Shown: one piece after another, positions 5,596 through 49,736 of the stretch | Position numbering within the stretch: position 1 is the stretch's first letter | Layout of the letters: each line of letters opens with the position of its first letter | DNA from: Aurantimonas endophytica | GTDB taxonomy: Bacteria > Pseudomonadota > Alphaproteobacteria > Rhizobiales > Rhizobiaceae | Assembly: GCF_014196845.1 (NCBI RefSeq) | Contig: NZ_JACIEM010000001.1 | Coordinates: 620,001 to 684,000, forward strand | DNA: 64,000 nt | Direction of reading: 5' to 3' | The notes under the pieces: model-generated | Told to the model about the DNA's origin: nothing | The model's input: the letters and a program-made list of their open reading frames with translations, nothing else | Database searches by the model: none | Translations under genes and position numbers: made by a program

Positions 5596-5685
5596 TGGCG
5601 GATGGGGTGGGATTCGAACCCACGAGACGGTCTCCCGCCCGCCGGTTTTCAAGACCGGTGCCTTCAACCGCTCGGCCACCCATCC
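5596..5685 (-). tRNA. tRNA-Ser (anticodon UGA)
   Basis: Read on the minus strand: acceptor GGATGGG pairing with CCCATCC, discriminator G, encoded CCA at 5596-5598, D-arm GCCGAGC, anticodon arm CCGGT-CTTGAAA-ACCGG with anticodon TGA, the long variable arm expected for serine, and T-loop TTCGAAT. It decodes UCA (and UCG by wobble). The gene is intact, but its 5' half (5647-5685) lies inside the left attachment repeat, so all DNA upstream of the tRNA is now element DNA. Confidence 0.97.
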
Positions 5686-5686
5686 G
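5647..5686. repeat. attL: 40-bp core within tRNA-Ser 5' half
   Basis: Starts TTTCAAGACCGGTGCCTTCA and runs to CCACCCATCCG. It is identical over 40 bases to 49235-49274. The core runs from the anticodon loop to one base beyond the 5' end of the tRNA. Confidence 0.96.
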
Positions 5687-5739
5687 TGCCTTGTAATCGC
5701 TAGCTTTTCCGGCTTGAGGGCAGGGGCCTGAGGGCCGTC

Positions 5740-5761
5740 TGCTACCGGATTGCTACCGAAC
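5740..5761. promoter_or_regulatory. Left arm-type integrase repeats
   Basis: Two direct TGCTACC heptamers in 11-bp steps (TGCTACCGGAT, TGCTACCGAAC), three bases downstream of the int stop codon. The same doublet occurs at 49097-49118 near attR. A further shared 11-mer, GCCTTGTAATC, occurs at 5688-5698 and 49175-49185. Position and symmetry fit arm-type binding sites of the tyrosine integrase. Confidence 0.75.
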
Positions 5762-5764
5762 GGT

Positions 5765-6913
5765 CTAAGATGCTGGCTTTACAGCCCGCCGGATCGCCGC
5801 GTCAACCTGCTCCGCCGCATCGGCCTGCATCCCCGGCATGACGTGGCTGTAGAGGTCCAGGGTGATCGCGATCGTCGAATGTCCGAGCCGCTCCTGCGCG
5901 ATCTTCGGATGGACGCCAGCCGCGAGCATCTGGGTGGCGTGGCTATGCCTGAGGTCATGGAAGCGGATGCGCTCCAGCTTCGTCTTCGCCAGGATCCGCG
6001 TCCATTCGTGGGTGAGGGACCTCGGCTGAAGCGGCGCGCCGTCGATCTGCGAAACAACGAAGGATCGATCGTCGGGGCGGATGCCGAGCTTCAGCTGCTC
6101 CTCCGCCTGCCGGGCGCGATATGCCTTCAGTTCCTCCACAACGGTCGAGGAGAGGCTCACGACGCGCGACAGGCCGCTCTTGGTCTCCTTCAGCCGGACC
6201 ACGCTCTTGATCTGCTCAGCGGTCTCCACGACGGCGAGGCGGCAGTTCACGAGGTCGACGTTTCGCCAGCGCAGCGCGACGATCTCGCCGCGCCTCAAGC
6301 CGCACATTACAGCCAGGAGGACCGGCACGAAGATCCGGGTATCTCGCACGGCGTCCAGCAGCTCGGCGGTGGTGCCGGCCTCATACGCTCGCATCTCCTT
6401 TCGCTCGACCTTGGGCGGCTTCGATGCCGTCGCAGGGTTCTTCGGCAGCATGTCCCACACCACTGCCTGACTGAGAGCCTTGATCAGCACGCGCCGCATA
6501 TGATGAACGGTGCGCGGCGCAAGGCCTCCCTTGCCGTCGCGACGGCCGCTGGCGAGGGCTGAGGTCCAGGCCGCGTCTATCCTCTCCGTCTTCAGCTTCG
6601 ACAGCAGGACGTCGCCGATCAGCGGGACGATGTTCTTCTGCGCGATCTCGGCATAGCGCTCCAGTGTCTTCGGCGAGACGGCCGACTTCTCGTGATCGAG
6701 CCACCGATCGAGGTAGGCGGCGACCGTCGTCTTCGTCGGCTCGGTATATCCGCCGTGTCGGATGGCTGTAATGATCCGCGCGCATTCCTCCTGCGCCTGC
6801 CTTTTCGTCCCGGCGAAGGAATGCCACTTTCGGCGTCGCTTACCGCCTGCGTCGGGCAGGTCGACAATGATGGCCCACTTGCCCGGCGATCGTTCGCGGA
6901 TGTGACCTTTCAT
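5765..6913 (-). CDS. int: Tyrosine recombinase (phage integrase)
   Basis: 382 residues. An N-terminal arm-binding region (residues 1-60, MKGHIRERSPGKWAIIVDLP) and a SAM-like core-binding domain (~65-165) precede the catalytic domain. Catalytic residues are visible: Arg207 in GLRRGEIVALRW, a Lys in the KETKSG hairpin, His319/Arg322 in HDLRHSHATQM, His345 in LGHSTI and Tyr355 in LDLYSHVM. It inserts and excises the element at the tRNA-Ser site. The start overlaps the stop of the upstream RHH gene (ATGA), so both come from one leftward transcript. Its stop abuts the left arm sites. Confidence 0.97.
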   Translation of the reverse strand: MKGHIRERSPGKWAIIVDLPDAGGKRRRKWHSFAGTKRQAQEECARIITAIRHGGYTEPTKTTVAAYLDRWLDHEKSAVSPKTLERYAEIAQKNIVPLIGDVLLSKLKTERIDAAWTSALASGRRDGKGGLAPRTVHHMRRVLIKALSQAVVWDMLPKNPATASKPPKVERKEMRAYEAGTTAELLDAVRDTRIFVPVLLAVMCGLRRGEIVALRWRNVDLVNCRLAVVETAEQIKSVVRLKETKSGLSRVVSLSSTVVEELKAYRARQAEEQLKLGIRPDDRSFVVSQIDGAPLQPRSLTHEWTRILAKTKLERIRFHDLRHSHATQMLAAGVHPKIAQERLGHSTIAITLDLYSHVMPGMQADAAEQVDAAIRRAVKPAS

Positions 6914-7533
6914 TCGCCCTCTCCTTCCGACTTCGTTCGCTTCGCGAGGATGCGAGCGATCTCGTCTGCAAGAAACTGATCCTGTTCCTCATCATCCATT
7001 TTTTCGAATGAGTCGTGAGTGGCATCAGACCAAGACTGAATGGCTAGAAACAAGGTGCGACGATCATCTCGACTCTTTCGTCGGCGAAGCGCCTCGCTGA
7101 GAGACAAGATTGTTTCATAAATTAGGTCCTTTGACTTCTCCGCTGCGACCGAAAAATTTCGTTCCCCGAGCAATGGTGCGGTCGCTTTGGAAAGCACCTC
7201 CACCTCCATGGCTAGCGTCTCTGCGGCGTCGAATGCATCAGATATAAGTACTTGAGACTTATCGGGGTTGTCGGTCAGGTAAGTCTGATCGATTTCTTCC
7301 TCCACGGCCTCGTACAAGGATCTCATATTCCTCAAGAGTACGTCGGACTGGTCCGAGATGATCTTCATCCGGCCATGAGAAAATATCCCTATTTGGCAAA
7401 GTCGCCTTACGGCCTCGGATCTCGAGCTAATCCGGTTCTCAAACCGCCAATCATCGATACTCTTTAGTTCTTCTTTGCTGATTTTGACGTGTAGGCGCTC
7501 AGTGTCGCCCTCGCCGAGTTTCGGTCGCGCCAT
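6910..7533 (-). CDS. Ribbon-helix-helix DNA-binding protein, int partner
   Basis: 207 residues. The N-terminus (ERLHVKISKEELKSIDDWRFENRISSRSEAVRRLCQIGIF) has the beta-alpha-alpha pattern of an RHH (MetJ/Arc/CopG) domain. The remaining ~150 residues are mostly helical and acidic, with no known domain. The ATG at 7533 follows a TTG, and the shorter start is used. The gene is translationally coupled to int, which suggests a role in controlling integrase or excision. It faces the rightward HTH gene across a 101-bp divergent promoter region holding a palindrome. Codon use is less GC-rich than in the structural genes. Confidence 0.8.
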   Translation of the reverse strand: MARPKLGEGDTERLHVKISKEELKSIDDWRFENRISSRSEAVRRLCQIGIFSHGRMKIISDQSDVLLRNMRSLYEAVEEEIDQTYLTDNPDKSQVLISDAFDAAETLAMEVEVLSKATAPLLGERNFSVAAEKSKDLIYETILSLSEALRRRKSRDDRRTLFLAIQSWSDATHDSFEKMDDEEQDQFLADEIARILAKRTKSEGEGE

Positions 7534-7573
7534 CAAACAATCCCCAGTTTTCGTACGTTATGTGCGCACGAAA

Positions 7574-7586
7574 CGCTTGCCAAGCG
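7574..7586. promoter_or_regulatory. Palindromic operator candidate between divergent genes
   Basis: Perfect 13-base palindrome CGCTTGCCAAGCG in the 101-bp gap between the leftward RHH-int operon and the rightward early genes. A looser TTCGT...ACGAA inverted repeat lies just to its left. The position fits an operator for the RHH or HTH protein controlling the integration/early switch. Confidence 0.5.
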
Positions 7587-7634
7587 GTTAACGGCTGATA
7601 AGGTGTGCACGTATCGCACGATATGGAGCACATC

Positions 7635-7841
7635 ATGACGATCGACGAAGCCTTGGCAAGACCCACCATCTCGGTCCCGGACGCAGGCGCTCTGTTCTTC
7701 GGGTTGGGGAGAAACGCAGCTTACGACGCGGCAAAAAGCGGCGAGATCCCGACCATTCGCATTGGCGGACGGATTGTCGTCCCCGTGGCGCCGCTGGCCG
7801 AACGGGTCGGCCTGCGCAGCACCATCGGGACCGCGGCATGA
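7635..7841 (+). CDS. Small HTH (excisionase/MerR-like) protein
   Basis: 68 residues. TISVPDAGALFFGLGRNAAYDAAKSGEIPTIRIGGRIVVPVAPL is the typical HTH_17 winged-helix pattern of excisionase-like proteins: helix-turn-helix, a GEIPTIRIGGR wing, then a VP strand. The start is set by GGAG at 7625-7628; an upstream ATG at 7623 is possible. As first gene of the rightward early operon opposite int, it is a good candidate for Xis or an early regulator. Its stop overlaps the next start (ATGA). Confidence 0.8.
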   Translation: MTIDEALARPTISVPDAGALFFGLGRNAAYDAAKSGEIPTIRIGGRIVVPVAPLAERVGLRSTIGTAA

Positions 7842-8539
7842 CAAGGGCGGCTCAGAACGTGGAAGGCCCGGCCGAGGGTGCAACCTCGCCGAGCCACGGT
7901 TCCACCTACCCCAGCAAGGATAAGGATATGAACGTCTCAACACATACCACGGCAGCTCGAGAGCCCGCAACGAATCCCTTTCGCTTCGAGGCGGAGTACC
8001 CGGCGGAAGCGACGAAGATCCGCGCGATGGAAGGCGGCGAGCTGATCATCCTAGTGGATGGCCTGATCGCGGCCATGGACGCCTACTTGTCCATCGTGAA
8101 CATGCCCCGGTGCCAAGAGGACAGCCCCTCACACTGCTGGCTCGACTACGAGATGGAGCGCCTTGGCGCAATCCGCGAAATGGCTATGGAAGAAATGCAG
8201 CGCCGGCCTTTCGACGGCGGGCATGATGACGACGAACGCATCCGCTGCATCGTCGCCTATCTCGTCGAGTGCGGCGAGCCGGTTGGTGAACTCCTCGACC
8301 AGACGGCGCAGATGGTGAAGGCGCAGGACACCGCCAAGCGCCAGCGCCGCCATATCAGCGAAATTGGCAAGCTGATCGTCAACGCGATTGTCGATGACGG
8401 GCTTACCGAGCGCGAGCAAATCGCGGCGAGCATCCGCGAACGGCTCGCACCGGACGAGGTCAACGACGCGGACCTACAGGCCGCTGCAGATCATGTTCGG
8501 GCGATATTCGACGAAGCAGAGGCGAGGGCGGCGGCATGA
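7838..8539 (+). CDS. Phage early protein, unknown function
   Basis: 233 residues if started at the ATGA overlap, or 203 from the ATG at 7928, which has its own AAGGATAAGGA leader. The latter (MNVSTHTTAAREPATNPFRFEAEYP) may be the real start. No domain is recognised. The middle is acidic and helical (ELIILVDGLIAAMDAYLSIV) and the C-terminus is helical (LTEREQIAASIRERLAPDEVNDADLQAAADHVRAIFDEAEA). It belongs to the early operon between the HTH gene and the replication genes. Confidence 0.7.
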   Translation: MTRAAQNVEGPAEGATSPSHGSTYPSKDKDMNVSTHTTAAREPATNPFRFEAEYPAEATKIRAMEGGELIILVDGLIAAMDAYLSIVNMPRCQEDSPSHCWLDYEMERLGAIREMAMEEMQRRPFDGGHDDDERIRCIVAYLVECGEPVGELLDQTAQMVKAQDTAKRQRRHISEIGKLIVNAIVDDGLTEREQIAASIRERLAPDEVNDADLQAAADHVRAIFDEAEARAAA

Positions 8540-9203: not shown

Positions 9204-9501
9204 CGGTTCTTATTCCGATCCTGACGGATCGGGCGCAAACGCGCCGCCGGACATTCGGAAAGAGCTGTTCGAGGAGGGCGTGAAATCCCTCAGCCGGCAG
9301 ACCGGCAAGCCAGCGACCAGCTGCCGGGCGCTGATCGGCAAATGGCTGAAATCCAGCCGTGACGACTGCCGTGTCGTCCTGACGAAAATCCGGCAGGCGG
9401 AGGTGGATCGGATCGCCGATCCGGTGCCGTGGATCGGGGAAGCGATCAAACCGGCGTGGTCGACAGATCCGGTCGAACGCCAGATGCGGCAATCGTTTTG
9501 A
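9190..9501 (+). pseudogene. C-terminal part of the DUF1376 replication protein, out of frame
   Basis: An open frame with coding character lies one frame away from the DUF1376 gene: FEEGVKSLSRQTGKPATSCRALIGKWLKSS, then VVLTKIRQAEVDRIADPVPWIGEAIK. This matches the C-terminal region usually fused to phage replication-initiator or DUF1376 proteins (a helical segment ending in a P.W/I.A motif). It has no ribosome site of its own near the repeat; an ATG at 8998 in this frame lies inside the DUF1376 gene. It is best read as the separated tail of that gene, restored by loss of one 7-bp unit or by ribosomal slippage. Confidence 0.65.
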
Positions 9502-9518
9502 ACGGCGCGATAATCCCC

Positions 9519-11285
9519 ATGACAGACGTGATCAGCGCCCTTGGCGAGCAGGGCATCTGGCTCCGCTCAGCGGCTGCCGGCGACCACAAGACGACCTGCC
9601 CGGCATGCTCGCACCAGCGGCGCAAGAAGACCGAGCCGTGCCTGTCGGTTACGGTCGAGCCGGAGGGCAGGGCGGTCTGGAATTGCCACCACTGCGGCTT
9701 CGCTGGAGCAGTCGGCGGAAGGGATCATCGTCCGGCGCATCAGGCTCGGGGGCCGCGCAGCTACCGTCGTCCAGCGCCGGTGGAGAATCCGCAGCGGCCG
9801 GACAAGATGCTGGAGTGGTTCGCCGGGCGCGGCATCTCGGCGGAGACCGTCACGGCGGCCGGCATCTATCGGACCCGCATCTGGTTCCCGCAGACGGACG
9901 GGGAGCTGGAATGCATCGCCTTCCCGTACGAATGGGCCGGCTCGCTGCGGAACGTGAAATACCGCTCGGCGGAGAAGCATTTCCGCCAGGAGAAGGACCC
10001 GGAGCCTGTCCTCTACAACGCGGACAGCATCATCGCCGGGCAGGATCTGATCATCTGCGAAGGCGAGATCGACGCGCTGAGCTTTATCGAGGCCGGCTTC
10101 CAGCGCGTCGTGTCGCTGCCGAACGGCGCCCCGGCAAAACCCGAGACGAGCGAACGGCGCTACGAGCCGCTGGCGACCCATGCGGACGCGCTAGAGGCCG
10201 TGAGCCGCGTCTACATCGCCACCGATATGGACGGGCCAGGCGAATTGCTGGCGAACGAACTGGCCCGGCGTTTGGGCAAGGATCGCTGCTGGCGGGTGCG
10301 GTTTCCGAACCGCGACGACGTCCAGGAGAAGGACGCCAACGACACGCTGATGCATCAAGGCGCTGATGCAGTCCGGCAATGCGTGAAGGATGCGGAGCCA
10401 TGGCCGATCGACGGCCTGCACGATGCTTCGGAGTTTGCCGACGAGGTGCTGGACCTCTACCACGGCCGCGGCCCGCAGCCGAAGTCCACGGGCTTCCCCG
10501 AGATGGACCGTGCCTTTCGGTATCAACCAGGGCAGTTCATCGTCGTCACGGGCATCCCGAACCACGGCAAGAGCCGCTGGCTCGACCAGGTGGCAGTCCA
10601 GACGGCGCGCATGAACGGTGACCGCTGGGCAGTCTTCTCACCGGAGACGGGCGACGCCAACCACATCGCGGACCTCTGCGAGATCTGGGCGGGCTTCCCT
10701 TTCCACGAGGGACCAACTCCGCGCATGACAGCCAAGGAACTCGCCGATGCCATGGCGTGGGTGAGGGACCGCTTCGTCTTCATCAACGCCAAGGACCACA
10801 CGCCGGCGATCGACTGGGTGCTCGATCGCGCCAAGGCGGCCGTCATTCGTCAGGGCGTCCGGCACCTGATCATCGACCCGTACAACGAAATCGAGGCAAG
10901 CCGCCCTGCCAAGCTCACGGAGACAGAGTTCATCAGCCAGTTCATTTCGAAGTGCAAACGCTTCGCCGCGCACCACGACGTCACTGTCTGGATCATCGTC
11001 CACCCGACGAAGATCCGGGCCGCGCCGGGTGACAGCCGAGAGCCGATCCCGACGCTCTACGATCTCGCCGGCTCCGCCCACTGGCGCAACAAGGCGGATG
11101 CCGGACTCGTCGTCTACCGCGACTATGCGCGCGATCAGACGCTCGTCATTTCGAAGAAGATCCGGTTCCAGCCGCGGTGCGGAGAGCCTGGCACGGTGAA
11201 GTTCGAGTTCCTCGGCGCCTGCCGGCGGTTCGAGGAGATCCCGAAGACATACGCCCGGCTCGGCACCTCGGCGGAGGCGGCCTGA
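9519..11285 (+). CDS. Phage primase-helicase (T7 gp4-like)
   Basis: 588 residues. An N-terminal zinc-binding domain (CPACSH near residue 27, CHHCGF near 55) leads into a TOPRIM primase core (DLIICEGEIDALSFIEAGF, then VYIATDMDGPGELLANELARRLG). This is followed by a DnaB-type RecA helicase domain with Walker A GIPNHGKS (~residue 346), VFSPETGD, Walker B HLIIDPYNEIE and a PTLYDLAGSAHWRNKAD helicase motif. It primes and unwinds DNA at the phage replication fork. The start at ATG 9519 precedes MTDVISALGEQGIWL; no strong ribosome site is seen. Its stop overlaps the next gene (TGATG). Confidence 0.94.
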   Translation: MTDVISALGEQGIWLRSAAAGDHKTTCPACSHQRRKKTEPCLSVTVEPEGRAVWNCHHCGFAGAVGGRDHRPAHQARGPRSYRRPAPVENPQRPDKMLEWFAGRGISAETVTAAGIYRTRIWFPQTDGELECIAFPYEWAGSLRNVKYRSAEKHFRQEKDPEPVLYNADSIIAGQDLIICEGEIDALSFIEAGFQRVVSLPNGAPAKPETSERRYEPLATHADALEAVSRVYIATDMDGPGELLANELARRLGKDRCWRVRFPNRDDVQEKDANDTLMHQGADAVRQCVKDAEPWPIDGLHDASEFADEVLDLYHGRGPQPKSTGFPEMDRAFRYQPGQFIVVTGIPNHGKSRWLDQVAVQTARMNGDRWAVFSPETGDANHIADLCEIWAGFPFHEGPTPRMTAKELADAMAWVRDRFVFINAKDHTPAIDWVLDRAKAAVIRQGVRHLIIDPYNEIEASRPAKLTETEFISQFISKCKRFAAHHDVTVWIIVHPTKIRAAPGDSREPIPTLYDLAGSAHWRNKADAGLVVYRDYARDQTLVISKKIRFQPRCGEPGTVKFEFLGACRRFEEIPKTYARLGTSAEAA

Positions 11286-16054: not shown

Positions 16055-16127
16055 AAAGTCCAGCCGCTCCTCCTAGTGCACCGGCGGTCTCGTGAATTTC
16101 CTACACGTGCAAAACTGGACTCCAAAC

Positions 16128-16592
16128 ATGGCCGGTGGACGACCACGCAAGCCGACGCACCTGAAGGTGGTCTCTGGCACGGCGCAGAAGTGCCGGATGA
16201 ATCCGAACGAACCGGAAGCTGAGGTTGGCACGCCGCAGCCGGCGGACTGGCTTTCGGAGCGGGCGACGGTGATCTTCTTCGAGACCTGCGCCTCCATGGA
16301 GCGCATGGGCACGCTGAGCCTCGAGTGGGGCAACGTGATCGCCGACTACGCCTCGTGCGTCGAAGAGGTCGAGATCACCACGGGCATCATCGAGGATCTG
16401 GGGCGGACCTACACCACGACCACGCAGACCGGCGACACGATGTTCCGTCCGCGACCGGAAGTGGCGATGCGGTCGGATGCGATGAAGCGGGCGCAGTCGT
16501 TGCGTGCGGAATTGGGTCTCGGGCCGGCGGCCAAATCCAGGGTATCGGCATCGAAGCGCAATGAAGACAACCCGTTCAAGGCGCTCGGCTAG
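16128..16592 (+). CDS. Terminase small subunit (P27 family)
   Basis: 154 residues from the ATG at 16128 (MAGGRPRKPTHLKVVSGTAQ), the usual start of P27-type small terminases. An upstream in-frame ATG at 16092 adds 12 residues. Later elements are ADWLSERATVIFFETCASMERMGTLS and a C-terminal RSDAMKRAQSLRAELGLGPAAKSRV. It recognises phage DNA and recruits the large subunit. It overlaps the large subunit gene by 32 bp. Confidence 0.92.
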   Translation: MAGGRPRKPTHLKVVSGTAQKCRMNPNEPEAEVGTPQPADWLSERATVIFFETCASMERMGTLSLEWGNVIADYASCVEEVEITTGIIEDLGRTYTTTTQTGDTMFRPRPEVAMRSDAMKRAQSLRAELGLGPAAKSRVSASKRNEDNPFKALG

Positions 16593-18270
16593 CCCGACGA
16601 ACTACATCGACAGCGCGAACCGCTATGCGCGGGATGTAGTCTCCGGCAAGATCCTCGCCTGCAAGTGGGTGCGGCTCGCGTGCCAGCGCCATCTGGACGA
16701 TCTCGCGAGGCAGAAGGACAAGGCGTTTCCGTTCCGGTTCGACAGGGCGAAGGCGGAGAAGGTCTGTCGGTTCCTTGAGCTGTTGCCGCACTCGAAAGGC
16801 GAGTGGGCGCGCAAAGGGCTCAAGCTACAGCTCGAGCCGTGGCAGTGCTTCAAGACGGCGGCGCTCTTTGGTTGGGTTCGCAAGCGCGATGGCCTGAGGC
16901 GGTTCCGCAAGGCGCTGATCCTGGAGCCGAGGAAGAACGCGAAGTCGACATGGGCGGCCGGGATTGGCCTCTACATGCTGACTGCGGACGGTGAGCATGG
17001 GGCAGAGGTCTATTCCGGCGCTACGACAGAGCGCCAGGCATGGGAGGTCTTCGGCCCGGCTCGGCTGATGGCGCAGAAGACGCCGGCACTGCAATCGGCC
17101 TTCGGGCTCTCGGTTAACGCTTCCAACCTGCACATCCTCGGCAACGGGTCGAAGTTCGAGCCCGTGATTGGCAAGCCTGGCGATGGTTCGTCGCCGACAT
17201 GCGCGATCATCGACGAGTACCACGAGCACGACACTGACGTTCAGGTCGACACGATGGAAACCGGCATGGGCGCCAGAGAGCAGCCCCTGCTTCTGATTAT
17301 CACGACCGCAGGGGACAATCTCGCCGGCCCGTGCTTCGCGGCGATGGAAGACGCGCAGAAGGTTCTGGAGGGGCTGGTCGAGAACGACGAGCTGTTCGCG
17401 CTGATCTACACGGTCGACCCCGAGGATGACTGGACAGGCGAGGACGCGCTTCGGAAGGCCAACCCGAACCTCGACGTGAGCGTGAAGGGCGAGTTCCTGC
17501 GGGCTCGCCAGCGGGACGCGATCAACAATCCGCGCAAGGTCGGCATCTTCAAGACAAAGCATCTGAACCTCTGGGTCCAGGCGCGGGACGCCTACTTCAA
17601 TATCCAGCGCTGGAACGAGAGCGCAGACCCTTCGCTGAAGATCGAGGACTTCGCGGGCAAGCCGTGCCGCATCGGCGTCGACCTTGCTTCGACGATAGAC
17701 ATCGCCGCGGTCGAGATCACGTTCAGGCACGGCGACGGGTTCGCGCGGTTCGGCCGCTACTACCTACCAGAAGCCACCATTGAGCAGGGTGAGAACGAGC
17801 ATTATCGGGGCTGGGAAAAGGCCGGTTGGATCACGCAGACCGACGGCGACATGATCGACTACGTGACGATCCGTGACGAACTCCTGAAGCTCGCCGCGGA
17901 CTATCAGGTCGAGGAAGTCGCCTTCGATCCCCACCAGGCGATGATGATGATGTCGGAACTGGCGCAAGAGGGCGTCCCGACGATCGAGGTTCGGCCGCTG
18001 GTGCTGAACTTCTCGCCGGCCATGAAGCAGATGGACGGGCTGATCCGCTCCCGGAAGATCGCCCACAACGGCGATCCCGTTTTCACATGGATGCTGTCCA
18101 ACGTCGTCGCCAAAGCCGACGCGAAGGACAACGTCTATCCCCGCAAGAACCGCGCCGAGAACAAGATCGACGGGCCGGTTGCGCACATGATGGCGCAGGC
18201 CCGCTGGATGTCAGCCGAGGAGGTCGGAATGAACTGGTCTGACATCTTCGAGAATGTCGTGAGCGCCTGA
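16561..18270 (+). CDS. Terminase large subunit (HK97 type)
   Basis: 569 residues. The ATPase domain has the adapted Walker A LEPRKNAKST (about residues 121-130), followed by GAEVYSGATTERQAW, and Walker B AIIDEY (Asp218, Glu219). The RNase H-like nuclease domain starts with GVDLASTIDIAAVEI, with a later acidic EVAFDPHQA. It translocates and cuts concatemeric DNA into proheads. The start overlaps the small-subunit gene, and the stop overlaps the portal start. Confidence 0.96.
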   Translation: MKTTRSRRSASPTNYIDSANRYARDVVSGKILACKWVRLACQRHLDDLARQKDKAFPFRFDRAKAEKVCRFLELLPHSKGEWARKGLKLQLEPWQCFKTAALFGWVRKRDGLRRFRKALILEPRKNAKSTWAAGIGLYMLTADGEHGAEVYSGATTERQAWEVFGPARLMAQKTPALQSAFGLSVNASNLHILGNGSKFEPVIGKPGDGSSPTCAIIDEYHEHDTDVQVDTMETGMGAREQPLLLIITTAGDNLAGPCFAAMEDAQKVLEGLVENDELFALIYTVDPEDDWTGEDALRKANPNLDVSVKGEFLRARQRDAINNPRKVGIFKTKHLNLWVQARDAYFNIQRWNESADPSLKIEDFAGKPCRIGVDLASTIDIAAVEITFRHGDGFARFGRYYLPEATIEQGENEHYRGWEKAGWITQTDGDMIDYVTIRDELLKLAADYQVEEVAFDPHQAMMMMSELAQEGVPTIEVRPLVLNFSPAMKQMDGLIRSRKIAHNGDPVFTWMLSNVVAKADAKDNVYPRKNRAENKIDGPVAHMMAQARWMSAEEVGMNWSDIFENVVSA

Positions 18271-19481
18271 TGGGTGTCTGGAGCCGATGGTTCGGCAAGC
18301 GCCTCACGGCCCGCGACGGCGCCCTCTATGACTTCCTCGGCGGCGACGACACATGGGCAGGCGAGAGTGTCACGCCGAAGGGCGCGCTGAACCTCTCCGC
18401 GTTCTGGGCAGGCACCCGCATAACCGCTGAGACAGTCGCCAGCTTGTCGCTGGACGTGATGGAGAAGCGTTCTGACGGCGTGAAGGTCCGAGTGACGGAT
18501 CACCCGTTGCAGGCGTTGCTGGACGAGAGCCCGAACGCTGAACAAACGGCGATCGAGTTCTGGGAAGAGCGCGTCCTGGGGCTGTGTACTACTGGAAATG
18601 CATTCGCGGAGAAGGCGTACAGCGGTGCTCGGCTGGTGGCGCTCAATCCGATGCCGGCTGAGACCGCCGTGGTCCGCAATAGCAGCGGCAAGCTGGAGTT
18701 TCGGTTTCCGGACCGCGGCAAGGAAATCGTCCTGCCGGCGGAGAAGGTGTTCCACCTAAAGGCATTCGGTGAGGGTGATGTCGGCTTCTCTCCGGTGGAG
18801 TATGCGCGCCAGACCCTGAGCCTGACGATCGCCACGGAGAAGATGGCCGGGCAGGCCTTCTCCAAGGGACTTCGCTCCAAGGGCTTCTTCGTGATGCCTC
18901 CGGGCGCAAAGCTCAACGATGAGGCCCGTGCCTCTGCGAAGAAGAACTTCGTGGACGCGAACTCCGGGCCGAATGCGCCGTGGGCCATGCTGCTGGAAGG
19001 CGGCATGGACTTCAAGACCATCAGCCTGTCGATGCGCGATGCGGAGATGATCCTGAATCGCCGGTTCAACGTCGAGGATGTCTGCCGCTGGCTTGGGCTT
19101 CCGCCGATCCTCGTTGGGCACGCGGCTGAAGGTCAGACGATGTGGGGGACCGGTGTCTCCGCCATCATGCAGAACTGGCTCAATCTGAGTCTTCGTAACC
19201 GTCTGAAGCGTATCGAGCAGGCGATCACCAAGCGGATCATGACGCCGGAAGAGCGGCGCCGGTTCGCGGTGAAGTTCAACTACGAGGATCTGCTGCGGAC
19301 GGACACCGAGGCCCGATACAAGGCCTATGAGGTCGCCATCCGCGCAGGCTTCAAGACCATCAATCAGGTCCGTCGTCTGGAGGGTGATGAGCCCGTTGAT
19401 GGCGGCGATGAGATCCGCACGCAGATGCAGAACGTGCCGATCGATCAGGCCGATGCGGCGGCACAGGAGAACCAGCCATGA
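18270..19481 (+). CDS. Portal protein (HK97 family)
   Basis: 403 residues starting in a TGATG overlap. It shows the HK97 portal pattern: NLSAFWAGTRITAETVASL near residue 45, GNAFAEKAYSGARLVALNP, EKVFHLKAF, GFSPVEYARQTLSL, and RFNVEDVCRWLGLPPILVGH near residue 265. A C-terminal acidic tail follows. It forms the dodecameric DNA entry ring of the head and joins the head to the connector proteins encoded downstream. Confidence 0.96.
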   Translation: MGVWSRWFGKRLTARDGALYDFLGGDDTWAGESVTPKGALNLSAFWAGTRITAETVASLSLDVMEKRSDGVKVRVTDHPLQALLDESPNAEQTAIEFWEERVLGLCTTGNAFAEKAYSGARLVALNPMPAETAVVRNSSGKLEFRFPDRGKEIVLPAEKVFHLKAFGEGDVGFSPVEYARQTLSLTIATEKMAGQAFSKGLRSKGFFVMPPGAKLNDEARASAKKNFVDANSGPNAPWAMLLEGGMDFKTISLSMRDAEMILNRRFNVEDVCRWLGLPPILVGHAAEGQTMWGTGVSAIMQNWLNLSLRNRLKRIEQAITKRIMTPEERRRFAVKFNYEDLLRTDTEARYKAYEVAIRAGFKTINQVRRLEGDEPVDGGDEIRTQMQNVPIDQADAAAQENQP

Positions 19482-20359: not shown

Positions 20360-21571
20360 ATGAGCAAGACCACGCAGGAGCTCCTTTCGGAGGTCTCCAA
20401 CGAGCTCGTGCGCGTCAGCGACGAGTTCTCCCGCAAGGCCGAGGCAGCGATGTCCGAGGTCAAGAACTACGGCAAGCTCTCGGAAGAGACCAAGGGCGTC
20501 GTCGATGAACTGGCCTCCACGCAGTCGGCGCTGACCGGCGCCGTCGACGACCTCAAGGCTCGCCTCGGCGAAGTCGAACAGAGCGGCGCCCGTCGTGCCG
20601 GTGGCAATGCCGATCGGCCGAAGTCCTTCGGCCAGCAGGTCGTTGAAGGCGAGGCGCTGAAGGGCGTTACGTCGAGCATCGGCCGCGGCAAGAGCATCAG
20701 CGTCCCGGTGAAGAACGTCACCACGTCGGTCGACATCGCCGAGGGCGTCGTCGAGCCGCAGCGTCTGCCGGGCATCGACGTCGCGCCGAAGCAGCGCCTG
20801 TTCATCCGCAACCTGATCGCACCTGGGCGCACCACTTCCCCTGCGATCTTCTGGGTGCAGCAGACCGGCTTCACCAACGCCGCGGCAGTGATCGCGGCGG
20901 AAGGCACGGCAAAGCCGTATTCCGATATCGAGTTCGCCACCAAGATCACGCCGGTCGCCACGATCGCGCACATGTTCAAGGCGTCGAAGCAGATCCTCGA
21001 TGACTTCGCGCAGCTCCAGTCGATGATCGACGCGGAGATGCGCTACGGTCTGAAGTATGTCGAGGAGCAGGAGATCCTGTTCGGGACGGGTCTCGGCGGC
21101 CACCTGGAGGGTATCGTCCCGCAGGCGACCGCATACGCCCCGGCGTTCACGGTCGATGCGCAGACGCCGATCGACGACCTCCGTCTCGCAATGTTGCAGT
21201 CGCAGCTGGCTCGCCTCCCGGCGACCGGCTTCGTCCTGCACTTCGTCGACTGGGCGAAGATCGAACTGACCAAGGACACTCTTGGCCGGTACATCATCGG
21301 CAACCCGCAGTCCCTCGCTGGCCCGACCCTCTGGGGTCTGCCTGTTGTGGCGACCGAAGCACCAGAGTTCCAGGGTGAGTTCCTGACCGGCGCTTTCCAG
21401 ACGGCGGCTCAGATCTTCGATCGCGAGGACGCGAACGTGGTGGTCTCCACCGAGAACGTCGACGACTTCGAGAAGAACATGGTCTCGATCCGCTGCGAGG
21501 AGCGGCTGGCGCTCGCCGTCAAGCGGCCGGAAGCGTTCGTCACCGGGCCGTTCACCGTCCCGACCCCGTAA
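20360..21571 (+). CDS. Major capsid protein (HK97 fold)
   Basis: 403 residues. The N-terminal ~110 residues are a coiled-coil delta (scaffold) domain (LLSEVSNELVRVSDEFSRKAEAAMSEV). The HK97 core follows, with LFIRNLIAPGRTTSPAIFWVQQTGF, EGTAKPYSDIEFATKITPVATIAHMFKASKQILDD, and a P-domain ending YGLKYVEEQEILFGTG. A strong terminator-like hairpin follows its stop. Confidence 0.96.
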   Translation: MSKTTQELLSEVSNELVRVSDEFSRKAEAAMSEVKNYGKLSEETKGVVDELASTQSALTGAVDDLKARLGEVEQSGARRAGGNADRPKSFGQQVVEGEALKGVTSSIGRGKSISVPVKNVTTSVDIAEGVVEPQRLPGIDVAPKQRLFIRNLIAPGRTTSPAIFWVQQTGFTNAAAVIAAEGTAKPYSDIEFATKITPVATIAHMFKASKQILDDFAQLQSMIDAEMRYGLKYVEEQEILFGTGLGGHLEGIVPQATAYAPAFTVDAQTPIDDLRLAMLQSQLARLPATGFVLHFVDWAKIELTKDTLGRYIIGNPQSLAGPTLWGLPVVATEAPEFQGEFLTGAFQTAAQIFDREDANVVVSTENVDDFEKNMVSIRCEERLALAVKRPEAFVTGPFTVPTP

Positions 21572-21578
21572 TGGCATC

Positions 21579-28311: not shown

Positions 28312-30975
28312 ATGCCATTCATCGCACCAGCCATCGCGGCCATCGGCGCTGCGGCCACCGGCATTGCATCGTTCGTTGGCGGGCTCGGCATCGTCGGTCA
28401 GGCGCTGCTCGGCATCGGGCTCAACTTCGCTGTCAGCGCGCTCCGGGGCGACCAGAAGCAGGAACCTGTCAGCGGCACACAGTTGCAGGTGCAGTACGGC
28501 GCCGATCGGCCGCGTGAGGTCGCAGTCGGGCTGGTCGCAGTCGCGGGGCATGATGTCTACACGAACACCTACGGCGCTTCGAACAAGTACATGCAGAAGG
28601 TGTTCGTGCTGTCGGACTTTCCGGTCACGGCGCTAACGCGGATTGCGGTCAACGGCGAGTGGCGCGCGATCAATTGGGGCAACGTCGAGGGTCGGGGCGC
28701 ACAGGTCACCGGGTTCGAGAAGGACGTTCTGCGCATCCGGTTCTACGACGGGCGGCACACCGCGCTGCAGGCGGCCGAGTTCGGCGAGCACGGCCTCGTC
28801 GGCTCGTCCAACCCGGCCGGGCGATGGACGGCGGACCATGTCGGCAAGGCGACTTCGTTCGTCGTCGTCAACGCCCGCTTCGACGACGAAGAGATGGCCT
28901 CGCTGCCGCAGTTCCTGTTCGAGTTCCAGGGGGCGCCGCTCTATGACGTGCGCAAGGATACGACCGCCGGCGGCGCCGGGGCGCAACGCTGGAACGATGT
29001 GGCGACGTGGGAGTATTCCGAGAACCCGATCGTCCAGGCCTACAATTACGAGCGCGGCTTCTTCGCCAACGGCCAGTTGCTGGTCGGCAAGGGCGTGCCG
29101 GTGGCGGATCTTCCCGCTGCGCCATGGATGTCGGCTGCGAACGTCTGCGACGAGAGCACGCCCACCCGGTCGCTCCGCTACCGGGCAGGGGCGCTGTTCT
29201 CCACCAGCGATGGCGTCACGCATTCGGACAATCTCGCTCCTGTGCTCGAGGCGTGCAGCGGCGGCCTGTTCTACCTGGTCGACGGCGACCATCCGATCGT
29301 CGGCGCCAACCAGCCGGTGGTCGCGACACTCACCGACGACGACATCATTGTCGGCAGCCCGCGGCAGTTCCGGGCCAAGCGGTCGCGCTCGGATCTCGTC
29401 AACACCGTCTTCGGCACCTACAACTCACCGGACGATCTGTGGGCGGCCACGTCCTACGACCCCCGCTCCTCGGCGCCGGCGCTTGCGGCCGATCGCGAGC
29501 GCCATGCGAAGGCGCTTAACTTCGGGGCGGTGTTCGTCGCCAGCCAGGCGTCGGACCTCGCCGAGGCGGCGCTGCGCCGGGCACGCTATCAGGCGTCCGA
29601 GACGGTCATCGTCCGGCCGCGCTGGATCGTTCTGGAGCCCGGCGACTGGATCTCGCTCGCCAGCGCCCGCTACGGCACGCGGACCTATCAGGTGGTTGGC
29701 CGCTCGCTCGGCGCGCTGAACGCCAATGGCGCCCGCAACGTGACTCTGACGCTCGATGAGGTCGGCAACGGCATCTACGACAGCTCGGTGGTCATTCCCG
29801 AGCGGCCTCCGCGCATATCGCCCGGCTTCCCGGTGCGGCTGTCTACGCTGCAGGGTTTCATCGCCTATGCGAGCCAGGTCACCAACGCAGCGGGCAGGGC
29901 GCTGCCTGCGATCACGGTGCAGTGGGATCTGATCGACGACGTGACGGTCGATGCCGTTGTCATCGAATATTGGAAGTCGGACGATCCGGCGCGTCGCATT
30001 CAGGCGACGTTCGATCGAGCATCTGTCAGCGGTGTGGTGGCTGAGGGTCTGGTGCCGCGGACCTCCTACACGCTGCAGGGAACGGTGGTGACCAACCCGC
30101 CGCGCAACACGTTCTTCTCGGCGCCGCAGATCGTCACGACGCTGACGGAGGACCTGGCGGCCGAGCTCGCCGACCTGCAGGAGGATATCCAGGAGATCCT
30201 GCGGTTCGGGCCGGAGAGCCTCGCGCGGTTCGAGGAGCTTCTCGAAGGCCTCGCGGCAACGATCGCCACGACCAATGTCGTCCAGCACAGCGAGGCCGAA
30301 AACGCCAACGCCTCCCTCATCGAGGAACGCACCACGCGAGCGACAGAGACCGAGGCTCTGGCCAGGCGCACCGACGGGGTGGTGGCGGAACTGACTGACG
30401 TCGCCACGCTTGCCACCGGGACCGCGACTGTTGTTGAAACGATGGAGGGGCGTGTCACCCTCACAGAGGAGGGGCTTGCAGTCGCTGCCGAGCGTCAGGA
30501 AATAGTAGAGTCCCGGATCGACAGCGTCGAGGGCGTCAACCTCGGCCAAGCCAACGCGCTCAACTCGCTGTCTACTTCGGTGACGCAGCAGGGCAACTCG
30601 ATTACGGCGCAGGCAAATCTCATCAGCGGCGTGCAGGCGACGGTGGGCGAAGTCTCGGCGCAGGGGCTGTTCAGCACGCAGGTCGTGGCAGGGGGAAGCG
30701 GCGGCAGCGTTCGGCTTGCGCTCCTGGCTCGCGTCACCGCCGGGTCAGGCTACACTCAGACAGGCATCTTCCTCGACATCACTAACGGCGTTGGAACCGT
30801 CCTGATCGACGCGAACCGCTTCATCATCACCGACGGCGCGAACCCGAACGTCTTTCCGTTCGTCGTGCAGGGCGGCATCGTGAAGCTCGCCATTGCCCGG
30901 TTCCAGCAGCTCATCTCCGACAATGGCAAGATGCTGATCGACGGGTCGGGCGGGACTATTTCGATCTATGACTAG
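28312..30975 (+). CDS. Central tail tip / host specificity protein (gpJ-like)
   Basis: 887 residues. The N-terminus (FIAPAIAAIGAAATGIASFVGGLGIVGQALLGIGLNFAVSALRG) has hydrophobic gpI-like segments and is fused to a hub region (VQYGADRPREVAVGLVAVAGHDVYTN, YGASNKYMQKVFVLSDFPV). A phage tail 'insertase' domain near 380-500, a fibronectin-like segment (~525-610), a long coiled coil (~635-800) and a terminal beta domain, FSTQVVAGGSGGSVRLALLA, follow. It contacts the receptor and forms the tail tip. The stop overlaps the next gene by eight bases. Confidence 0.92.
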   Translation: MPFIAPAIAAIGAAATGIASFVGGLGIVGQALLGIGLNFAVSALRGDQKQEPVSGTQLQVQYGADRPREVAVGLVAVAGHDVYTNTYGASNKYMQKVFVLSDFPVTALTRIAVNGEWRAINWGNVEGRGAQVTGFEKDVLRIRFYDGRHTALQAAEFGEHGLVGSSNPAGRWTADHVGKATSFVVVNARFDDEEMASLPQFLFEFQGAPLYDVRKDTTAGGAGAQRWNDVATWEYSENPIVQAYNYERGFFANGQLLVGKGVPVADLPAAPWMSAANVCDESTPTRSLRYRAGALFSTSDGVTHSDNLAPVLEACSGGLFYLVDGDHPIVGANQPVVATLTDDDIIVGSPRQFRAKRSRSDLVNTVFGTYNSPDDLWAATSYDPRSSAPALAADRERHAKALNFGAVFVASQASDLAEAALRRARYQASETVIVRPRWIVLEPGDWISLASARYGTRTYQVVGRSLGALNANGARNVTLTLDEVGNGIYDSSVVIPERPPRISPGFPVRLSTLQGFIAYASQVTNAAGRALPAITVQWDLIDDVTVDAVVIEYWKSDDPARRIQATFDRASVSGVVAEGLVPRTSYTLQGTVVTNPPRNTFFSAPQIVTTLTEDLAAELADLQEDIQEILRFGPESLARFEELLEGLAATIATTNVVQHSEAENANASLIEERTTRATETEALARRTDGVVAELTDVATLATGTATVVETMEGRVTLTEEGLAVAAERQEIVESRIDSVEGVNLGQANALNSLSTSVTQQGNSITAQANLISGVQATVGEVSAQGLFSTQVVAGGSGGSVRLALLARVTAGSGYTQTGIFLDITNGVGTVLIDANRFIITDGANPNVFPFVVQGGIVKLAIARFQQLISDNGKMLIDGSGGTISIYD

Positions 30976-40498: not shown

Positions 40499-42055
40499 CT
40501 AATGCACTACTCCAACGGCTTGGGCCACGGCGGCGGCAAGTTTCGCCGCCCGAAACGGCTTGTCGAGTTTCAGTAGTCCCTCATCCGCACCCGGGGGCAG
40601 TTCTGCGTAGCCCGTCGCCAGGATCATCGGAGTGTTTGGCCATTCAGCCCTAATGGCTGTGGCCAACTGCGCACCGGTCATGCGGGGCATGGCGTGGTCG
40701 GTGATCACCAGATCTACAGCCTCTTCGCGCTTGAGAATGTCGAGTGCTTCGGCCCCTGACGTCGCTTCGAACACGCGGTGCCCCATGTCCTCCAGCATCA
40801 ACACCGTGTTCATCAGCACCAGCGGATCGTCGTCCACGGCGAGAATCGTCAGGGATGACGTGGCTGGCTCCGCCGGCTGTGCCCGAACCGACACTTCCTG
40901 CTGAACGGGCGCGGCCGCGGCGACGGGTAGGCAGATCTCCGCCGAGGTGCCCTTTCCCTTACGGCTCTTCAGCGTGAGGCAGCCGCCCGACTGCTCTGCA
41001 ACACCGTAGACCATGGAGAGGCCAAGGCCAGTTCCCTTGCCGACGCCTTTGGTGGTGAAGAAGGGGTCCGTCGCGCGTGCAAGCGTCGTCTCGTCCATAC
41101 CTTCACCAGTGTCGGTAATTGCCAGGCAGACGTAGCTCCCGGGGCTCAGGCTTGCATCTTCGTCGGCGGAAACCTCTTTTCGGCGCGCTGAGATGGTGAT
41201 TGTCCCCCCACCGGGCATGGCGTCTCGCGCATTCACCGCGATGTTTAGCAGTGCCAACTCCAACTGATTAGCGTCTGTCAGGACTGGCGGCAGGATCAAG
41301 GGGAACTGCGTCTGGATCTCGATCCCGGGTCCCACCGATCGCTCCAGCAGGCCAGCCATACCGGCGACGAGAGCGGGTAGCGAAACCGGCGCCAACTCCA
41401 GGGTCTGGCGGCGGGCAAATGCCAGCATGCGCTGGGTCAGCGCAGCGCCTCGCTCGCCTGCAGCAATCGCATTGTCTAGCAGTGGCGTGATCCGTCGATC
41501 CTCAGGAATCCGCTTTCGCACCATTTCGAGGCTGCCGAGGATCGCCATCAGAAGGTTGTTGAAATCGTGCGCCATGCCTCCGGTAAGCTGCCCGATCGCC
41601 TCCATCTTCTGCGACTGGAACAGAGCCTCGCGTGCCCGTTCCAGAGCTTCCTGATGTTCCTTGCGCTCGGTTAGGTCCCGCGTGACCTTGGCGAAGCCGA
41701 CGAGGCTACCATTCATGTCGCGGATGGGATCGATCACGACATAGGCCCAGAAGCGAGAGCCGTCCTTGCGCACGCGCCAGCCCTCGCTCTCGAACTTTCC
41801 GTCCAAAGCCGCCGTCTTAAGGGCGCGAGCCGGGAGCCCGACCGCCTTGTCTTCTTCGGTATAAAAGCGAGAGAAATGTTCTCCGAGGATCTCGGCTTCC
41901 TCGTATCCCTTGAACCGCCGGGCCCCGGGGTTCCAGCTAGTGACTATGCCGCTGGGGTCGAGCATGTAGATCGCGTAATCGGTGACCGCCTCGATCAAGA
42001 TCCGGTAGCGCCCGTCCTCCGTGAGGGAGGAGGAGAACCGTTCGACCTGTTCCAT
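40499..42055 (-). CDS. PAS-domain hybrid histidine kinase
   Basis: 518 residues, cytoplasmic (no membrane segment). PAS domain residues ~15-130 (YAIYMLDPSGIVTSWNPGARRFKGYEEAEILGEHF); HisKA with His163 in GGMAHDFNNLL; HATPase_c with N-box Asn275 (NIAVNARDAM), G1 DTGEGMD, F-box DPFFTTK and G2 GTGLGL; C-terminal receiver with Asp453 (ITDHAMP) and Lys499. This is the soluble FixL/HWE-neighbour 'PAS-HisKA-REC' type, a presumed sensor that could act as a phosphorelay start. No cognate regulator is adjacent. It is unusual cargo for a prophage. Confidence 0.95.
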   Translation of the reverse strand: MEQVERFSSSLTEDGRYRILIEAVTDYAIYMLDPSGIVTSWNPGARRFKGYEEAEILGEHFSRFYTEEDKAVGLPARALKTAALDGKFESEGWRVRKDGSRFWAYVVIDPIRDMNGSLVGFAKVTRDLTERKEHQEALERAREALFQSQKMEAIGQLTGGMAHDFNNLLMAILGSLEMVRKRIPEDRRITPLLDNAIAAGERGAALTQRMLAFARRQTLELAPVSLPALVAGMAGLLERSVGPGIEIQTQFPLILPPVLTDANQLELALLNIAVNARDAMPGGGTITISARRKEVSADEDASLSPGSYVCLAITDTGEGMDETTLARATDPFFTTKGVGKGTGLGLSMVYGVAEQSGGCLTLKSRKGKGTSAEICLPVAAAAPVQQEVSVRAQPAEPATSSLTILAVDDDPLVLMNTVLMLEDMGHRVFEATSGAEALDILKREEAVDLVITDHAMPRMTGAQLATAIRAEWPNTPMILATGYAELPPGADEGLLKLDKPFRAAKLAAAVAQAVGVVH

Positions 42056-48103: not shown

Positions 48104-48155
48104 TGACGGCATCAGTGGCCTCACAACCAGAGCCGAAGCTCAAGAAAGGTCGATC

Positions 48156-48371
48156 ATGGGACGTGGCCCGTCGTCTTTCAAACAGTCCGATGTCGTTCGA
48201 GCGGCTAAAGCGCTCCAGGCAAGCGGCCTGGAGATCCTGCGGACCGAGATCATGCCCGACGGACGCCTTATCTTCATTCACAAAGCTGAGGCTGATGCTC
48301 CTCCTGTGGTGGATGCATACGAGGTTTGGAAGACCAGCCGGGCTGGGAACGGCGACGGACGCCCTGCCTGA
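48156..48371 (+). CDS. Small conserved phage protein near integration end
   Basis: 71 residues: MGRGPSSFKQSDVVRAAKAL, QASGLEILRTEIMPDGRLIFIH. The 'M.RGP..FKQ.D..RA.k......G....v.i..DG.i' pattern is a recurrent short protein beside alphaproteobacterial prophage integrases, from memory. Its basic helix followed by a beta hairpin suggests nucleic-acid binding. Function unknown. Confidence 0.8.
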   Translation: MGRGPSSFKQSDVVRAAKALQASGLEILRTEIMPDGRLIFIHKAEADAPPVVDAYEVWKTSRAGNGDGRPA

Positions 48372-48416
48372 GGTAGCTTAGCCCACCTCTTACCCGTCGG
48401 TCATGAGGTGGCACTC

Positions 48417-48707
48417 TCAGTATGAGGTGCCCGGTACTGGACCATTGACCCCAAATGTCCCGCCAGACGCGTTCACGTGACGAAGAACGACCTCAACTTG
48501 ATCACCATTTGAAAGCGTCAGCTTCGGTGGCGGTACTTTCATGAAATCGACCTGGTGCGGCAACAGCTCATCGCTGATGAGCCTGCCGTCTGCCCACCGG
48601 GAATTGGTGCGCGCATCGTGCCAAACAGTCAGCTCGTAATCCACGGCGATCGACGCATCGGCGCTGCTGAGATTACCCCTACCAGCCAATTGCTTGATGG
48701 GTTTCAT
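48417..48707 (-). CDS. Hypothetical protein, 96 residues
   Basis: MKPIKQLAGRGNLSSADASI then AVDYELTVWHDARTNSRWADGRLISDELLPHQVDFMKVPPPKLTLSNGDQVEVVLRHVN. A soluble, beta-strand rich small protein. No family known. Leftward, near attR. Confidence 0.65.
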   Translation of the reverse strand: MKPIKQLAGRGNLSSADASIAVDYELTVWHDARTNSRWADGRLISDELLPHQVDFMKVPPPKLTLSNGDQVEVVLRHVNASGGTFGVNGPVPGTSY

Positions 48708-48817
48708 CTAACGGAACCTCCACTCGGGCCGGAGTGGCCCACGCTTCGTCTCCCTTCCATGTTGCGAGCATGTCGCATGGATCTGCCGAGGTCCAGCGGC
48801 GCACTTTTAGCGGCGGC

Positions 48818-49042
48818 TTAGGGACTGACGAGGCGGAAAACTCTACCGTCGAGGTCGGTGAATTCAGCGTCGTCATCCGTGTTGAGAGGCTTGCCGGTTG
48901 GAAATTCCCAGAACGTAGTTCCGCCGACGGCCTGCGTTCCGCTTATCAGTTCCGGCGTGGCAACGTTTTCGAACTGGTAGGCCGTGAGGATTGTGCCGTC
49001 TTCGGATATCAACTGAGCGGTACCGATATGTTTGGCTGTCAT
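48818..49042 (-). CDS. Hypothetical protein, 74 residues
   Basis: MTAKHIGTAQLISEDGTILT then AYQFENVATPELISGTQAVGGTTFWEFPTGKPLNTDDDAEFTDLDGRVFRLVSP. Beta-rich, soluble, no signal. It is the last gene before attR. The ~190 bases between its start and attR hold the right arm sites. Confidence 0.65.
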   Translation of the reverse strand: MTAKHIGTAQLISEDGTILTAYQFENVATPELISGTQAVGGTTFWEFPTGKPLNTDDDAEFTDLDGRVFRLVSP

Positions 49043-49096
49043 GTGTAAATCCGACTTGGCGATCTACCATGATGGCGGAACGCCGTGAGAACAGAC

Positions 49097-49127
49097 TGCT
49101 ACCATTTTGCTACCCAACTCGGTAGCA
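49097..49127. promoter_or_regulatory. Right arm-type integrase repeats
   Basis: TGCTACCATTT and TGCTACCCAAC in 11-bp steps, then an inverted GGTAGCA at 49121-49127. This mirrors the 5740-5761 doublet. The shared GCCTTGTAATC 11-mer lies at 49175-49185. Confidence 0.75.
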
Positions 49128-49234
49128 CAGAGCGATATAGGCACGGACAGAGCCGCACGGCGGGAGGGTAGGGCGCCTTGTAATCAGGGCTTTCGCGGCA
49201 TGGCTTGATACGGTCGAATACGCCTATGACCGAA

Positions 49235-49274
49235 TTTCAAGACCGGTGCCTTCAACCGCTCGGCCACCCATCCG
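49235..49274. repeat. attR: 40-bp core, orphan 5' half of tRNA-Ser
   Basis: Identical to 5647-5686. On the minus strand it encodes only the acceptor 5' strand, D-arm and half of the anticodon arm of tRNA-Ser, then continues into element DNA. The flanking sequences differ immediately on both sides. Confidence 0.96.
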
Positions 49275-49736
49275 CTGCCTGCCGAGTTACCTGCGCGGCG
49301 TCGCCATGACAAGGGTCGGGCAGGGCGCGCGGATCGGCGGCGATGCATTGGACGCTTCATCGAAACAATTCGTGATCGGAATTCGAATACGGCATTAACC
49401 GAGCGGAAATGCGGCTTTTATCCGGTTCAGAGGTCTGCTGCGGGGTCACGTGTCGTAGTCTCGTCGCGGATTTGGATGCGGGGGCAACCGCTTGCCGGCT
49501 GGCGCAGCCGGGCACGCACGCGGTGCCGGCAGAATGACCGGGCTGAGAACTGAAATACGCCCGGTGCAAGTGTGCCACTGTCAAGAGAGCGAAGCGACGA
49601 CGGCGCCAGTTTTTCACGTTCGGTCACGTTGATTCACAGATTCATACGCTGTTAACTCGGCCGCTTCAGGGGTTCGGGCGCTGGGGAGCGTTCGTTGCGC
49701 CTCGGTGCAGAGCATCGCATGGGGAAGGGGGACCGC
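49275..49736. other. Host intergenic stretch to the right of attR
   Basis: No convincing gene. It holds the original upstream region of the tRNA-Ser gene (minus strand) and the leader of rlpA (plus strand). Confidence 0.6.
49284..49312 (-). promoter_or_regulatory. Displaced native promoter of tRNA-Ser
   Basis: Read on the minus strand: -35 TTGTCA (49307-49312), 17-base spacer, -10 TAACTC (49284-49289), with the tRNA 5' end about ten bases downstream. It fits a sigma-70 promoter for the tRNA before integration. It now points at the orphan tRNA half at attR. Confidence 0.6.

Follow-up and report, generated by a model that had tools for sequence, protein, structure and literature searches.

What drives a tRNA gene once a prophage has inserted through its 5' half and taken the place of the DNA that lay in front of it? 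The question is raised by a tRNA-Ser(UGA) gene of Aurantimonas endophytica, contained in a 64,000-nt stretch of its genome (positions 620,001 to 684,000 of contig NZ_JACIEM010000001.1, assembly GCF_014196845.1; "the window" hereafter), where a 43.5-kb tailed-phage prophage lies on the 5' side of the gene. Promoter matrix scores, codon-level conservation and decayed relatives make it highly probable that this phage carries its own outward-facing tRNA promoter, placed within the 3' end of its integrase gene (int). It also seems rather likely, with less assurance, that in the integrase family concerned the end of the coding sequence has become a portable tRNA promoter, protein code and promoter overlapping, that serial phage visits have repeatedly rewritten the promoter of this single-copy tRNA gene across the Hyphomicrobiales, and that some phage-free genomes still transcribe it from the promoter of a dead int.

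Prophage insertion through the 5' half of the tRNA gene

An integrase gene and large terminase, portal, capsid and tail genes lie between two copies of a 40-bp core, which identifies the element as the prophage of a tailed phage, situated 5' of the tRNA. The two copies are identical and the sequences on either side of them are unlike by direct comparison, and the core runs from one base 5' of the tRNA start to the anticodon loop; core comparison and gene content thus bear out the original prediction, made from the letters of the window, of a prophage inserted through this half. The 5' end of the tRNA lies 79 bp past the end of int. The parts concerned are:

5596-5685, minus strand: tRNA-Ser(UGA), anticodon TGA in DNA (ARAGORN)
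5596-5646, minus strand: host-derived 3' half of this tRNA (ARAGORN, core identity, empty site in genome G002)
5647-5685, minus strand: phage-delivered 5' half of this tRNA (core identity, empty site in G002)
5647-5686, minus strand: attL core, 40 bp, same letters as 49235-49274, with diverging flanks
5687-49234, no strand: prophage body, phage genes between the cores
5765-6913, minus strand: tyrosine integrase (int), 382 aa, reading the same way as the tRNA (PF00589, E 2.3e-26; phrog_1, 2e-72)
6910-7536, minus strand: regulator-like gene overlapping the start of int (phrog_4738 transcriptional repressor, 1.7e-6)
49235-49274, minus strand: attR core, an orphan 5' half of the tRNA without a 3' half

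Direct repeats matching a tRNA and enclosing a tyrosine integrase and structural genes are typical of tRNA-integrating temperate phages, as is a target tRNA complete at attL and fragmentary at attR. The usual sublocation, in which the phage supplies the 3' half, does not apply, the 5' half being supplied here. Supply of the 3' half is a usual and not a defining trait, because among 88 Sinorhizobium meliloti prophages and islands in tRNA genes 77 match the 3' end and nine the 5' end (PMC11476347). The source genome (G000; 5.04 Mb, 9 contigs, 43 tRNA matches) was found to hold a single Ser tRNA with the anticodon UGA, which bears, for this anticodon, on the earlier question of whether other tRNA-Ser genes read UCA. 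A second tRNA reading UCA was rejected as a candidate, no further UGA-anticodon Ser gene being found in G000 by a search on that anticodon only.

The native promoter left beside attR

Where, then, is the promoter that this tRNA had before the phage arrived? The same-genus genome G002 offers an empty site: the core is present once, and the window's left flank, core and right flank, joined in a script, match it in a single alignment of 799 columns at 87%, the left flank past about 5590 lying outside it. G003 is likewise without the prophage, and the joined sequence aligns over the core in two pieces, the left-flank homologues lying about 6 kb from the tRNA.

Promoters were scored with a matrix built from 43 other tRNA upstream regions of G000, which gave CTTGaca-N16-CTATAtg, and the following site was located beside attR (the upstream piece was scanned one base short, which left the site unaffected):

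49284-49312, minus strand: native tRNA promoter, -35 TTGTCA at 49307-49312, spacer of 17, -10 TAACTC at 49284-49289

Its score is 11.1, a value that 1.0% of 4000 random 110-nt pieces drawn from the window also attain. The string CTTGTCA-N16-GTAAC precedes the tRNA in G002 and G003 and stands beside attR in the window, the G003 copy having one base changed in the -10. Since both genomes carry the attR-side promoter before their tRNA, the working tRNA of the window is severed from its native promoter. The original prediction fares well in this respect: the upstream DNA of the prophage-free G002 matches the attR side and does not differ from it, the tRNA at attL has lost its own upstream DNA, the TTGTCA/TAACTC site (coordinates and score as given) now stands before only an orphan half without a 3' half, and the proposal that the element has to supply a promoter gains support.

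On the 3' side of the same tRNA, window positions 4540-5590 are conserved in neither G002 nor G003 and hold internally similar stretches (68-72%); they form a second variable spot beside this gene.

A candidate promoter in the last codons of int

The gap between int and the tRNA holds nothing comparable by the matrix: its best site scores 4.5, a value reached by 27% of random 79-nt pieces of the window. The statement that 5687-5764 shows no equally good promoter was hence right as far as it went, while the interval searched was too narrow, as a candidate lies just inside int. It reads GTTGACG-N17-GTAAAGC, scores 11.3 and ends, at its -10, 90 nt before the tRNA; promoter-like element sequence upstream of the target gene, a trait of 5'-end integration with an element-supplied promoter, is therefore present. 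The sites in question are:

5687-5764, minus strand: int-tRNA gap, no promoter-like site by matrix scan
5776-5805, minus strand: putative promoter within the 3' end of int (matrix, codon freezing, synonymous recoding, remnants)
5800-5805, minus strand: its -35, TTGACG
5778-5783 or 5776-5781, minus strand: its -10, TGTAAA (spacer 16) or TAAAGC (spacer 18)
5740-5746 and 5751-5757, minus strand: TGCTACC pair in the gap, probable integrase arm sites
49097-49114, plus strand: TGCTACC repeats near the right end, probable arm sites

A conserved GCTAACGAAATCAA directly before the tRNA was considered as a -10 and rejected, having no matrix support in the window. The promoter evidence in the window taken by itself is modest, so the case rests on comparison with relatives.

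An integrase family at the same tRNA half

Relatives of the integrase were collected at 107 loci (67 from genome_contigs and 40 from viral_contigs). A complete same-strand tRNA starts 69-83 nt past the int stop in 56 of them, and is a tRNA-Ser(UGA) in 51 cases, a tRNA-Ser(CGA) in one and a tRNA-Sec in four. As for the other loci, 21 end at the int stop, five show the matching half without a complete tRNA (L102, L106, L121, L137, L144), two have the tRNA in an unusual place (L069, L079), and 23, mostly distant relatives, show no such tRNA. The 5' half is present in two or more copies in 29 of 37 named genomes. Orphan halves were read in 25 of those 29 (G215, G224, G227 and G232 were left unread) and in G129, giving 27 halves from 26 genomes, G214 contributing twice. 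Together with that of the window, all 28 lack a 3' half, and 27 of the 28 continue with TTC[GT]; identity ends in the anticodon loop. Because the halves continue in this way, the attP form deduced from them is ACCGGT-CTTGAAA-TTCGGT, an anticodon loop between two roughly inverted arms. A class of crossovers in the anticodon loop, with identity ending there and inverted repeats taken from the anticodon stem, was reportedly described by Williams in 2002.

GTTGAC or ATTGAC occurs within 250 nt upstream of the tRNA at 58/58 family loci with a Ser or Sec tRNA, and falls in the int tail at the loci whose sites were listed. The two-arm motif is present in 50 of the 56 gaps counted in the family (L069 and L079, with their tRNA in an unusual place, entered neither this count nor the profile described below). 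An integrase-borne promoter, as predicted from these tails, is accordingly a trait of a Hyphomicrobiales integrase family, carried by phages of bacteria that live in soil or with plants, and not one case; nor is the use of this half singular, this family sharing it and nine of the S. meliloti tRNA elements matching the 5' end. The phages collection held integrase relatives of less than 60% identity only, and the matches listed there for the tRNA stretch fell in tRNA genes of unrelated phages.

Several variations were seen at this target. The family integrases of L050, L064, L066 and L070 adjoin a tRNA-Sec instead of a tRNA-Ser; half copies of tRNA-Sec were sought in four genomes and matched in three, one of which carries two exact 5' halves on a single strand, separated by about 31 kb. 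In L041 (5231-5320) and L172 (Jiella endophytica), the half brought by the phage has GGGTGGG where the host orphan half has GGATGGG, a change by which integration yields a tRNA-Ser with a G3.U70 wobble pair, G3.U70 being the main identity mark for alanyl-tRNA synthetase. Single changes are found in two orphan halves (L226, L229; GAATGGG and TCTAGAAA), as expected for a fragment freed from selection. Signs of tandem elements at the same tRNA include a second int beside a further half copy in L057/L106 (G215) and three half copies in G214.

Synonymous codons are frozen at the putative promoter positions

The codon-level comparison used 51 integrases, those remaining from 65 family genes after redundancy was removed at 90% nucleotide identity; L067, L068, L070 and L077 (internal stops), L069 and loci with a partial int were left out. 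These 51 integrases share 203 conserved columns, of which 130 carry an amino acid with four or more codons, and the sole single-codon column among the 130 is a Val written GTT in 48/48 genes, a codon that makes up 17.8% of Val codons in usage. The remaining three genes have Ile as ATT at this column, which preserves TTGAC, and the next codon is GAC in 50/51. At the codon of the presumed -10, Val is GTA in 17/17 genes (usage 7.1%) and Ile is ATA in 17/17 (usage 9.2%), other residues occupying it in the remaining 17 of 51. TTGAC is present in 50/51 tails, L140 being the exception, and in 0/9 distant integrases within the last 120 nt. When the last 75 nt are recoded synonymously, the median best score falls from 11.3 to 2.2, with p <= 0.02 in 45 of 51 genes (values that count related sequences as independent and are usable as a ranking). 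This looks like a promoter maintained by selection on synonymous integrase codons.

A small set of more distant integrases can be set beside the family. L155 (G129; also L271), 39% identical to the window's integrase, likewise occupies the tRNA-Ser(UGA) 5' half and carries GTTGACG-N17-CTACAGG in its tail (12.7); L341 (G429), 41% identical to L155, is likewise at this target, with GTTGACG-N17-ATAGGTA (12.0). L340 (G095), adjoining a Ser(CGA)-like half, is without TTGAC and has CTGGACA-N17-CTAGGGA (9.5). L339 (G267), 46% identical to L155, is one for which no tRNA was found within 600 nt past int, and its tail holds GTTGAT and no promoter-like site (3.7).

Remnants before the tRNA in phage-free genomes

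Can such a promoter outlive its phage? A profile of the 150 nt before the tRNA was made from 44 family members, some rows being truncated integrases; loci with a tRNA-Sec or Ser(CGA) were excluded from this profile only. Among 97 relatives with a tRNA match, 87 upstream regions of tRNA-Ser(UGA) were used (the others are G050, G062, G064, G066, G067, G078, G081, G091 and G097, and G090, where the tRNA is cut by the contig end). The profile recovered a single intact element, in G018, along with 12 remnants at E < 1e-3, eight of them at E <= 1e-6 (L036, L019, L299, L295, L033, L305, L037, L280); the best reversed sequence reached E 0.23 and the best of 62 upstream regions of other tRNAs E 1.9.

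In five of the eight strong remnants, tblastn still detects 22-54 residues of the int C-terminus within 600-700 nt. An integrase match at E <= 1e-60 occurs in nine of 200 genomes, and the genomes of these remnants are not among the nine (at most nine candidates scored per genome). TTGAC and a TAA-bearing -10 at promoter spacing are kept in 8/8. Two intact arm sites, counted with the same pattern as in the family, survive in 1/8, against 50/56 family members (Fisher p = 2e-5). Over all 87 loci, TTGAC at -80 to -140 occurs in 20 (the intact one included), against 2, 1 and 0 in three other 60-nt intervals. The profile also finds, at E < 1e-3, the upstream regions of nine of the 28 orphan halves, in keeping with a single site that has been visited repeatedly. 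It thus appears that an int-tail promoter is able to outlive its phage at the host tRNA and may remain active there.

Weighing the promoter against other explanations

A number of observations weigh against a promoter in the int tail. In the window, the int-tail site is outscored by one at 7940 (11.6) and so comes second over the 2.6 kb before the tRNA; a generic sigma-70 consensus scan did not include it among its sites. The -10 varies, and the spacer can be read as either 16 or 18; the variability is in keeping with S. meliloti sigma-70 promoters, which conserve a TTG motif and show poor conservation at the -10 (PMC3616915). In some family members the gap contains a further good site closer to the tRNA (e.g., L043, L052, L091), the int-tail site is the top site of its own gene in just 37 of 51, and the recoding test gives p > 0.02 for six of the 51 genes; its values, as noted, treat relatives as independent. 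The four weakest of the 12 remnants and the loci with TTGAC only could be native promoters.

Could the tRNA instead be made by read-through from the regulator-int operon? Both genes overlap and point at the tRNA, no terminator-like site was found on the tRNA strand between 5500 and 8000, and the site scoring 11.6 lies upstream at 7940. Such read-through would leave unexplained both the frozen GTT-GAC and NTA codons and the eight genomes that keep an int tail where no intact int was found; as the full account it is improbable, and it may add to transcription of the tRNA.

Equally, a phage promoter in the int tail might serve right-end phage genes in the circular form, the tRNA merely benefiting, since it would read across attP into the right end, where a 96-aa open reading frame lies on that strand (48417-48707). 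Phage-free remnants nevertheless keep the promoter before the tRNA, which makes this explanation an unlikely one if taken alone, and both uses could hold.

Binding sites are expected near attL in tyrosine integrase systems, and the conserved GTTGAC lies there; it might therefore bind the integrase, an excisionase or a host factor. This is very doubtful, as frozen NTA codons follow it at promoter spacing, it fits a matrix learned from other tRNA promoters, and it is kept in remnants while the repeated arm motif usually decays.

Lastly, tRNA-dependent lysogeny, in which the host tRNA is destroyed and a phage-encoded one substitutes, is known for mycobacteriophages (PMC10865867) and was rejected here as next to impossible: the rebuilt tRNA at attL is complete and the only tRNA found in the window, and no acceptor-stem mismatch occurs in 53 tRNA-Ser genes beside family integrases.

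Proposed mechanism

A promoter in the int tail would fit the following course of events. The integrase would recombine in the anticodon loop of tRNA-Ser(UGA), the anticodon stem probably serving as its inverted repeat, with the element coming to lie on the 5' side. The phage brings a 5'-half copy of the tRNA, as is shown at the present locus, and severs the gene from its promoter, as the empty same-genus site shows. A sigma-70-type promoter in the last int codons, with its -10 about 90 bp upstream and aimed at the tRNA, would then keep the gene alive. Transcription would begin close to the int stop codon and cross the arm sites, and RNase P would trim the leader to the mature 5' end of the tRNA. 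After decay of the prophage, of which remnants are found, the promoter could stay and remain active, because by then it would be the promoter of the host's tRNA gene.

If this is true, a dead-integrase remnant would be indispensable to its host. The arrangement suggests how an element may exploit the 5' half of an essential tRNA gene and yet leave the host alive, it offers a candidate case of phage promoters taken over by a core host gene, and it makes host promoter turnover by phages directly testable.

Other features of the prophage

The genes of the prophage body include:

9429-11285: primase-helicase
16092-16592: small terminase
16504-18270: large terminase
18270-19481: portal
20360-21571: capsid
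24610-26724: tape measure
28312-30975: tail protein

The prophage also encodes a PAS / histidine kinase / response regulator protein of 518 aa (40499-42055, minus strand). The 11-mer GCCTTGTAATC is found near both prophage ends (5688-5698 and 49175-49185), perhaps by chance.

Comparison with known systems

In the titles, opening parts of abstracts and passages that the searched literature offers, with few subscription journals represented, no description of a promoter inside int for a captured tRNA was found. The prophage Phi1_WSM419 resides at tRNA-Ser(TGA) of Sinorhizobium medicae (PMC5537653), the same target gene in a related host, in an account whose consulted parts mention neither a 5' half nor a promoter; the family locus L051 comes from S. 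medicae. In ICEKp1, integration couples tRNA and int transcription, the tRNA promoter driving int (PMC13023037), and the present case would be the reverse, an int-borne promoter driving the tRNA. As in the tRNA-dependent lysogeny of Fionnbharth and others, survival of the lysogen would depend on a phage-borne fix for an essential tRNA, with the difference that a whole phage tRNA replaces the destroyed one there, whereas the host gene is rebuilt here (PMC10865867).

Closer in principle are the islands and prophages at dusA, which replace the 5' end of their target gene and for which putative promoters before and after integration have been proposed (PMC4482086). Replacement of the target 5' end and an element-supplied promoter are common to both, the target being a protein gene there and a tRNA here, and the parts of that account at hand neither place a promoter inside int nor describe codon-level conservation. 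In Islander-type elements, which use a tyrosine integrase and restore the gene, attP holds a tRNA fragment, the tRNA is rebuilt, and the displaced fragment marks the other end (PMC4383910). The prophage described here shares all of these features and, unlike the usual elements of this type, supplies the 5' half of the gene, and therefore would supply its promoter as well.

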